The translations under genes and the position numbers were made by a program. Under the pieces are notes generated by a model that saw only the letters and a list, made by a program, of their open reading frames with translations, had not been told where the DNA came from and did not search any database. From positions 322,281 through 386,280 of the forward strand of contig CAUYUJ010010391.1 of NCBI GenBank assembly GCA_963575745.1: 64,000 bases of DNA, in the 5' to 3' direction. The DNA is from Prorocentrum cordatum (lineage: Eukaryota > Sar > Dinophyceae > Prorocentrales > Prorocentraceae). Below, piece after piece: positions 16,694 through 16,725 of this stretch (the first letter of the stretch is position 1; every line of letters begins with the position of its first letter).

Positions 16694-16725
16694 CGAGCCA
16701 AAACTTGAGCCAAAATGGCTACGGA
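16694..16725 (-). other. Relict dinoflagellate spliced leader, perfect copy plus partial copy
   Basis: Read on the minus strand, 16725-16704 is identical to the 22-nt dinoflagellate spliced leader, with T at the variable first base and ending CCATTTTGGCTCAAG. It is followed directly by TTTTGGCTC (16703-16695), a fragment of a second leader. The leader is normally added to mRNA in trans from a separate gene. A copy in genomic DNA joined to coding sequence, without the downstream SL RNA donor and intron, indicates a reinserted cDNA. Confidence 0.9.

Follow-up and report, generated by a model that had tools for sequence, protein, structure and literature searches.

'mRNA recycling' via DinoSL-relic retrogenes in dinoflagellates is reportedly an idea of Slamovits and Keeling in 2008, and is also said to figure in the work of Song in 2017. 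Such retrogenes are already known from several accounts (PMC6050394, PMC12014239, PMC2488372, PMC7245778) and, in the descriptions compared here (PMC12014239, PMC6050394; also Song 2018, Haro 2025), they resemble the locus reported below in that a leader encoded in DNA lies ahead of a coding frame and in their high copy number; they also have truncated relics in tandem, of which the present locus has a probable example. What sets the present locus apart is that the whole unit is delimited, by a 15-bp target repeat that abuts it and by a defined 3' end; neither feature appears in the published descriptions compared. In Amphidinium carterae, leader-like motifs have been described in genomic DNA (Bachvaroff and Place 2008; PMC2488372) and, as here, the leader stands at the exact trans-splice site; the genes of this species are described in the passages compared as mostly tandem arrays with mini poly(A) (PMC2488372), whereas the present unit has no poly(A) and its two copies lie on different contigs. 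Regarding the type of retrotransposon behind dinoflagellate mRNA reinsertion, it was called unknown, with Ty1/copia favoured, in the relevant section of PMC6050394; copia-like transcripts have been reported (PMC3942190), and target-site duplications are mentioned for introner-like elements in the passages compared (PMC7789003). A literature search judged by titles, abstract openings and selected passages returned no account of dinoflagellate target-site duplications or of leader-tagged non-LTR elements.

The locus lies on the minus strand of the window, i.e. the whole 64-kb stretch of Prorocentrum cordatum DNA that was analysed. With considerable confidence, the unit at 14950-16725 is interpreted as having recently been copied into DNA from a trans-spliced mRNA, and its insertion is predicted to have occurred by non-LTR (LINE-type) target-primed reverse transcription. 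Its features, in the direction of transcription, are the following.

16726..16740, minus strand: 5' copy of a pyrimidine-rich 15-bp direct repeat, TCCTCTTTGCCCCCC, a candidate target-site duplication that ends directly before leader base 1
16704..16725, minus strand: dinoflagellate spliced leader, complete (22 nt), D = T, by consensus match
16690..16703, minus strand: TTTTGGCTCGCGAG, probable older truncated leader relic, directly 3' of the leader
16582..16599, minus strand: short out-of-frame upstream ORF (MSCRC*) in the 5' UTR
15125..16576, minus strand: uninterrupted open reading frame of 483 codons, likely start 16573, no Pfam or PDB match
15089..15093, minus strand: site in the 3' UTR where the copy on contig C17155 has 115 extra bp, from the alignment of the copies
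14950..15124, minus strand: 3' UTR with the end TTTTTCTTGTCTTGTCTTG and no poly(A); its last 140 nt (from 15089) are a module common to other loci
14935..14949, minus strand: 3' copy of the 15-bp direct repeat TCCTCTTTGCCCCCC, beginning after the 175-nt 3' UTR

An initial annotation of this DNA had claimed that all 22 nt of the leader stand on the minus strand ahead of the 483-codon frame. The alignment confirms it: TCCGTAGCCATTTTGGCTCAAG (minus strand, 16725-16704) is identical at 22/22 positions to the leader consensus DCCGTAGCCATTTTGGCTCAAG with D = T, used as quoted in the relevant section of PMC6050394, and 127 nt lie between the leader end and the frame. As in DinoSL-relic retrogenes, the genomic leader precedes a coding frame and no SL RNA gene structure lies behind it. 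The frame runs from an ATG at 16576, followed by a second in-frame ATG at 16573, to a stop at 15125-15127. It is judged from sequence comparison to be very likely coding, since a relative, P0003, begins at the second ATG and has 43/48 N-terminal residues identical (90%), with a weaker match towards the C-terminus. The best protein match is P0002, recorded as Prorocentrum cordatum. A Pfam search of the frame up to E = 1 returned no match, hence no reverse transcriptase or endonuclease of its own as in an autonomous LINE; a PDB search of the frame gave no match either, and none of its relatives was confirmed in viral contigs. Pfam applied to 18 of the 74 listed window frames of at least 200 codons found no reverse transcriptase; the same scan gave one Ion_trans match and three below-cut-off matches, all on one frame. 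The Ion_trans domain, above the Pfam cut-off, belongs to a 552-residue frame at 29991-31649 on the minus strand.

The assembly (4,128,499,153 bases) was searched with window 14900-16780 as query and 40 of 156 candidates were scored, among which near-complete copies numbered only two. The copy found outside the window lies at C17155:723980-725622 and 725738-725882 (overall G000:C17155:723980-725882, on a contig of 855,712 bases) and is 98.9% identical to the window over 1643 aligned positions and 99.3% over 145. The frame, counted from 16573, is open in both copies, with 9 nucleotide differences, 8 nonsynonymous and 1 synonymous (dN 0.0073, dS 0.0030, on these few changes); these 9 codon changes carry no sign of purifying selection on the frame since the split of the copies. 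The perfect leader had been attributed either to recent retroposition or to selection: the identity to the C17155 copy speaks for the former, and the 8:1 ratio of nonsynonymous to synonymous changes does not support the latter. In the 3' UTR, the extra 115 bp of the C17155 copy read AAGGTCG...TTCAGGCACGACGAGCTCG where the window has AAGGTCGGCTGCTCG; this is not an exact GT-AG excision, and the difference is possibly an intron loss. P0002, considered as an intron-bearing parent, was rejected, its DNA also having the leader, which makes it a sister copy. Its gene model (L031, G000:C17155) looks doubtful at both ends, because the C-terminus reads the 115-bp stretch past the likely stop and the N-terminus replaces the DNA-encoded MLARC start; the 165 N-terminal residues have no match in the window, and the extra C-terminal residues are read from the 115-bp stretch. 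Since the C17155 copy has the leader too, it is a sister and not a proven parent, and no leader-free parent was found among the 40 candidates scored of 156.

The ends of the unit are not private to it. Its last 131-177 nt recur at 93-99% identity in C18878, C8984, C20143, C14100, C14981 and C2700 (same search, 40 of 156 candidates scored); five of these six were compared in gene orientation, and all five have other sequence than the unit upstream of this module. For the stretch just 3' of the leader (about 16709-16627), 23 places with 78-84% identity are listed; the alignments of three of them take in the leader as well. Because these terminal modules are common to other loci, the unit may be a non-autonomous retroelement rather than a host retrogene, i.e. 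a chimera that has common terminal modules and uses LINE machinery, the 483-codon frame being a passenger and not a retrocopied host gene. We regard this alternative as rather unlikely. The scarcity of near-complete copies among the candidates scored, the appearance of one relative (L036) as 5'-truncated in a pyrimidine tract, and the 8 of 9 changes that alter the protein are all in its favour; the 90% identity over 48 N-terminal residues of the diverged P0003 and the open frame in both copies are not, and retrogene families could also come to have UTR modules in common. Another repeat family, seen at L033 and L036-L039, also has the 3' module of the unit, and L033, L036 and L037 end at the same base run.

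The retrocopy reading takes its boundaries from the direct repeat, which delimits a minus-strand unit of 1,776 bp (14950-16725). The exact 15-mer TCCTCTTTGCCCCCC occurs twice in the 64-kb window, a third-order Markov model predicts 3e-5 copies per 2 kb, and the sequences outside the two 15-mers show no relationship, with identities of 35% and 30% over 40 nt. A within-window control without complexity filter, in which 327 of 1694 pyrimidine-rich minus-strand positions had a 15-mer match within 2 kb, is uninformative because simple repeats dominate the window, and was dropped in favour of complexity-filtered counts. With repeats of at least 13 bp, a spacing of 500-4000 and similar complexity, 18 pairs, including the focal one, were counted in 64 kb, i.e. 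3e-4 left ends per position. A first complexity cut of 0.76 on 13-mers excluded the focal repeat, which is C/T-rich; a lower cut of 0.70 was then applied to both cases and control, this value having been set once the first outcome was known. In a TRF-masked repeat count of the window, the focal 15-bp repeat is absent from the list. Elsewhere in the window, 61927-63095 is a tandem segmental duplication with a period of 821 bp.

LINE-type target-site duplications measure about 7-20 bp, and the 15-bp repeat, which abuts both cDNA ends, agrees with what is expected of a LINE-type retrocopy. No poly(A) precedes 14949, and the pyrimidine-rich 3' end is common to other loci; the unit is therefore claimed to behave like a LINE-type retrocopy, but not to be a canonical example. 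The size of the repeats also bears on the LTR route: LTR integrases give duplications of 4-6 bp, so repeats of 13-15 bp, as found here and at the loci described below, count against it. Retroposition driven by Ty1/copia LTR elements is thus improbable, even with the argument from expression published in its favour in the sections compared (PMC6050394, PMC3942190); poly(A) at two places and the existence of leader-tagged units with LINE-type domains also speak against it.

Comparison of the two copies was informative about the ends. Their alignment extends from window position 16731 to 14945, so that it exceeds the leader by 6 bp and covers 5 bp of the 3' repeat, both targets being pyrimidine-rich there; the copies have common unit ends to within 6 bp, in agreement with the unit predicted by the direct repeat. 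They lie on different contigs with different flanks: in C17155, a long TCC microsatellite precedes the leader, and TCC repeats follow the 3' end TTTTTCTTGTCTTGTCTTG, which is the same as in the window. The leader junction differs as well, reading CAAG-TCAG-TTTTGG in C17155 and CAAG-TTTTGG in the window. The leaders of the two copies were likely joined at different points, and the simplest reading of the junctions would be that the window leader was added at the AG of TCAG; the 4-nt shift could instead be a 4-bp indel. A segmental DNA duplication of the C17155 copy, which would have carried leader and gene along with no new RNA stage, would account for the full leader in both copies and for their 99% identity, and is very unlikely given that the two sequences cease to resemble each other no more than 6 bp beyond the leader on one side and inside the 3' repeat on the other, that the flanks differ, that the 15-bp repeat brackets the window copy and that the junctions differ by TCAG. 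The claim of the initial annotation that a mature trans-spliced transcript was reinserted is supported by three boundary features: the direct repeat, a second copy that has the same ends amid different flanks, and the shifted leader junction.

An SL RNA gene or a chance match, to which one might turn on seeing a perfect 22 nt, has a negligible probability: the bases directly 3' of the leader CAAG are TT and not a GT donor, an Rfam search of the window found no family at gathering score, the number of exact 22-mers expected in the window from base composition is 4e-9, and the leader 21-mer with up to 3 mismatches has 2 matches in the 64 kb vs 0 in 100 shuffles. A GT donor with SL RNA structure, the presence of which would by the earlier note have overturned its reading, is thus not found behind 16704-16725 and the SL RNA gene was ruled out, as was chance by the shuffles and the expectation.

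Directly behind the leader, TTTTGGCTCGCGAG lacks CCA relative to CCATTTTGGCTCAAG, the truncated-relic form of DinoSL-relic retrogenes. The tandem score of leader plus truncated leader is 24/36 at this site, and the best of 500 shuffled queries also reached 24; the case for a second relic is made by its position and by the C17155 copy, in which TCAG precedes the same stretch, and not by this score. The leader itself holds CCGTAG and ends in CAAG, both of which are predicted to be possible trans-splice acceptors. Eighteen of the 20 bases before the leader CCGTAG are pyrimidines, a level reached by 21 of the 8079 AGs in the window, the leader's own included.

The leader copy had been taken as exceptional; it is instead one of thousands. 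Across the assembly, 33,832 sites match the 21-mer leader at no more than 2 mismatches vs 9 for the reversed pattern, and the exact first 18 leader bases occur 16,100 times vs 0. With one free base allowed between tract and leader, 4,204 of these 16,100 copies follow 15 pure pyrimidines and 1,435 follow 15 pure purines, i.e. 35.0% together. Pyrimidine tracts are 2.9 times as frequent as purine tracts before leaders genome-wide; this excess could reflect a strand-specific nick or a better survival of the expressible orientation. The presence of both strand classes indicates that splicing needs alone are insufficient to account for the tracts, a purine tract being no polypyrimidine tract.

The surroundings of such copies were inspected at the first 22 listed exact places (18 on C1 and 4 on C2, hence two contigs only), with C1:639 omitted at a contig end and C1:893877 falling inside the L015 stretch. 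The resulting 20 stretches hold 21 exact leaders, which were counted, and 2 leaders with two mismatches, which were left out of the counts. Fifteen pure pyrimidines or purines precede 12 of the 21 leaders (9 pyrimidine, 3 purine; p = 2e-15), against a background of 2.2% of positions in the sampled stretches and 1.7% in the window, and a tract was found in 0/21 at five offsets 60-800 nt inside the unit. The tracts are long, 6/21 leaders still having one 80 nt upstream. Under a looser rule (21 of 24 bases), a tract precedes 17/21 leaders, and a strict TCC/GGA period test is positive for 14/21 (background: stretches 2.5%, window 1.3%). The focal target is pyrimidine-rich only and is no TCC microsatellite, scoring 11/24 in this period test.

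What these leaders are attached to was addressed by a Pfam scan of 16 frames from 15 of the 20 stretches (one frame from each of 14 and two from L014), in which domains lying in other frames may be missed. RVT_1, Exo_endo_phos or RNase_H scored above the Pfam cut-off in 6 of the 15 loci: L013, L016 and L018 have both a reverse transcriptase and Exo_endo_phos, L015 and L024 a reverse transcriptase, and L026 RNase H. The 9 others have no LINE domain above cut-off; L014, L017 and L022 have matches below cut-off only, and L010, L012, L020, L023, L025 and L028, with one frame scanned for each, have no match at all. Five of the six loci above cut-off lie at TCC microsatellites, and L018 follows a TA-rich stretch. 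In L013, a frame of 1,869 residues is open from inside the leader, and a search for homologues of its reverse transcriptase gave 19 proteins, of which three are recorded as P. cordatum, with identities of 25-35%; L013 and L024 share about 92% identity. At the other end, frame ends were hand-picked for the comparison of 3' runs, some loci having further long frames downstream. Where a TCC/GGA run lies no more than 300 nt past the frame end (L013, L015, L016, L020, L022, L024, L026, L028), its strand class is the same as at the 5' end in 8/8 loci; for the first triplet run behind the frame end in all 16 loci with a 5' class, 11 were the same, 3 opposite and 2 had none. These features suggest that the leader-tagged loci are leader-capped LINEs residing in microsatellites; in several of them, the visible end has no poly(A).

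These units resemble APE-type LINEs and LINE-mediated retrocopies, such as those of mammalian L1, in the 13-15 bp target repeats, the poly(A) at two places and the 5'-truncated relative (L036), as well as in the L013 reverse transcriptase, which matches R2 and LINE-1 ORF2p chains. They differ from them by the leader at the 5' end, by an ATG directly after the leader in 4 of the 9 units inspected (L013, L015, L024, L026) and by several tail-less units ending in TCC/GGA microsatellites. A preference for simple repeats is also known from microsatellite-targeting non-LTR elements, namely the (TG)n-specific Togen and the HERO families; in the passages compared (PMC4640811), these belong to restriction-like-endonuclease clades, whereas Exo_endo_phos (L013, L016, L018) and TCC/GGA tracts are found here.

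Some insertions lie outside microsatellites. The window holds a second such locus (1082-4637), with the following features.

1082..1094, plus strand: 13-bp direct repeat GCATCCCCGCAAG, directly before a degenerate leader
1095..1131, plus strand: degenerate 22-nt leader (1095-1116) followed by a degenerate truncated leader (1117-1131), by tandem score
4444..4464, plus strand: A8, then the second copy of the repeat GCATCCCCGCAAG (at 4452)
4616..4637, plus strand: A6, then the third copy of the repeat GCATCCCCGCAAG (at 4622; 16-bp match)

The leader pair at 1095-1131 scores 29/36, i.e. seven changes in 36 leader bases. Because the leader is degenerate while the repeats and A-runs are intact, it appears to predate the insertion. 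A single simple event fails to account for this combination, and the arrangement of repeats suggests two insertions at one target. Inside the unit, window 3720-4320 consists of about 600 bp of GCTAAGCTAAA-type satellite. Four of the sampled leader copies lie outside microsatellites. In L014, GGTCCCTGCCGACC abuts leader base 1 and returns behind an A8 run at a distance of 6.6 kb downstream; the other three (L018, L019, L029) have no abutting repeat within 9.7 kb. Poly(A) before the 3' repeat is thus found at the window 1082 locus and at L014. When these four cases and both window loci are taken together, an abutting 13-mer recurs 0.5-9 kb downstream in three of the six (focal, window 1082, L014), compared with at most 0.8% of positions in the control (binomial p 9e-6, at the 0.70 complexity cut chosen post hoc).

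Target repeats, target preference and leader-tagged LINE-type units in one genome point to a LINE route, a question that genome-wide boundary counts can test. In the proposed mechanism, the mRNA would receive its leader at the TCAG acceptor just before the older relic, a LINE-type reverse transcriptase would start copying it at the 3' end TTTTTCTTGTCTTGTCTTG and proceed as far as the first leader base, and a staggered cut at the TCCTC-containing pyrimidine tract would give rise to the 15-bp duplication, the machinery presumably being supplied by the leader-tagged LINE-type elements of the assembly. In the pyrimidine orientation, a new trans-splice acceptor would arise from the target tract together with the AG of the leader (CCGTAG or CAAG), and the rebuilt acceptor may leave the copy ready for expression and for another round. 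Insertion would in this way supply a trans-splice acceptor, which could explain the expressibility of retrocopies without their own promoter. As a tentative extension that may well prove wrong, mRNA recycling would run on leader-capped LINEs aimed at TCC/GGA microsatellites, in which the spliced leader is the whole 5' UTR of the element mRNA; insertion in the pyrimidine orientation would rebuild the acceptor, so that elements and captured host mRNAs are re-leadered at every cycle, and the focal copy, along with many of the 16,100 exact copies, would be a product of the same targeting machinery.

Exact leader copies were also encountered on a viral contig with AT-rich long frames (L001, IMG/VR 3300045993_001077), at 2746-2766 and 2893-2913 on the minus strand, 147 nt apart. 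One of them stands just before a frame of less AT-rich composition, and these leaders possibly represent an assembly chimera or leader capture.
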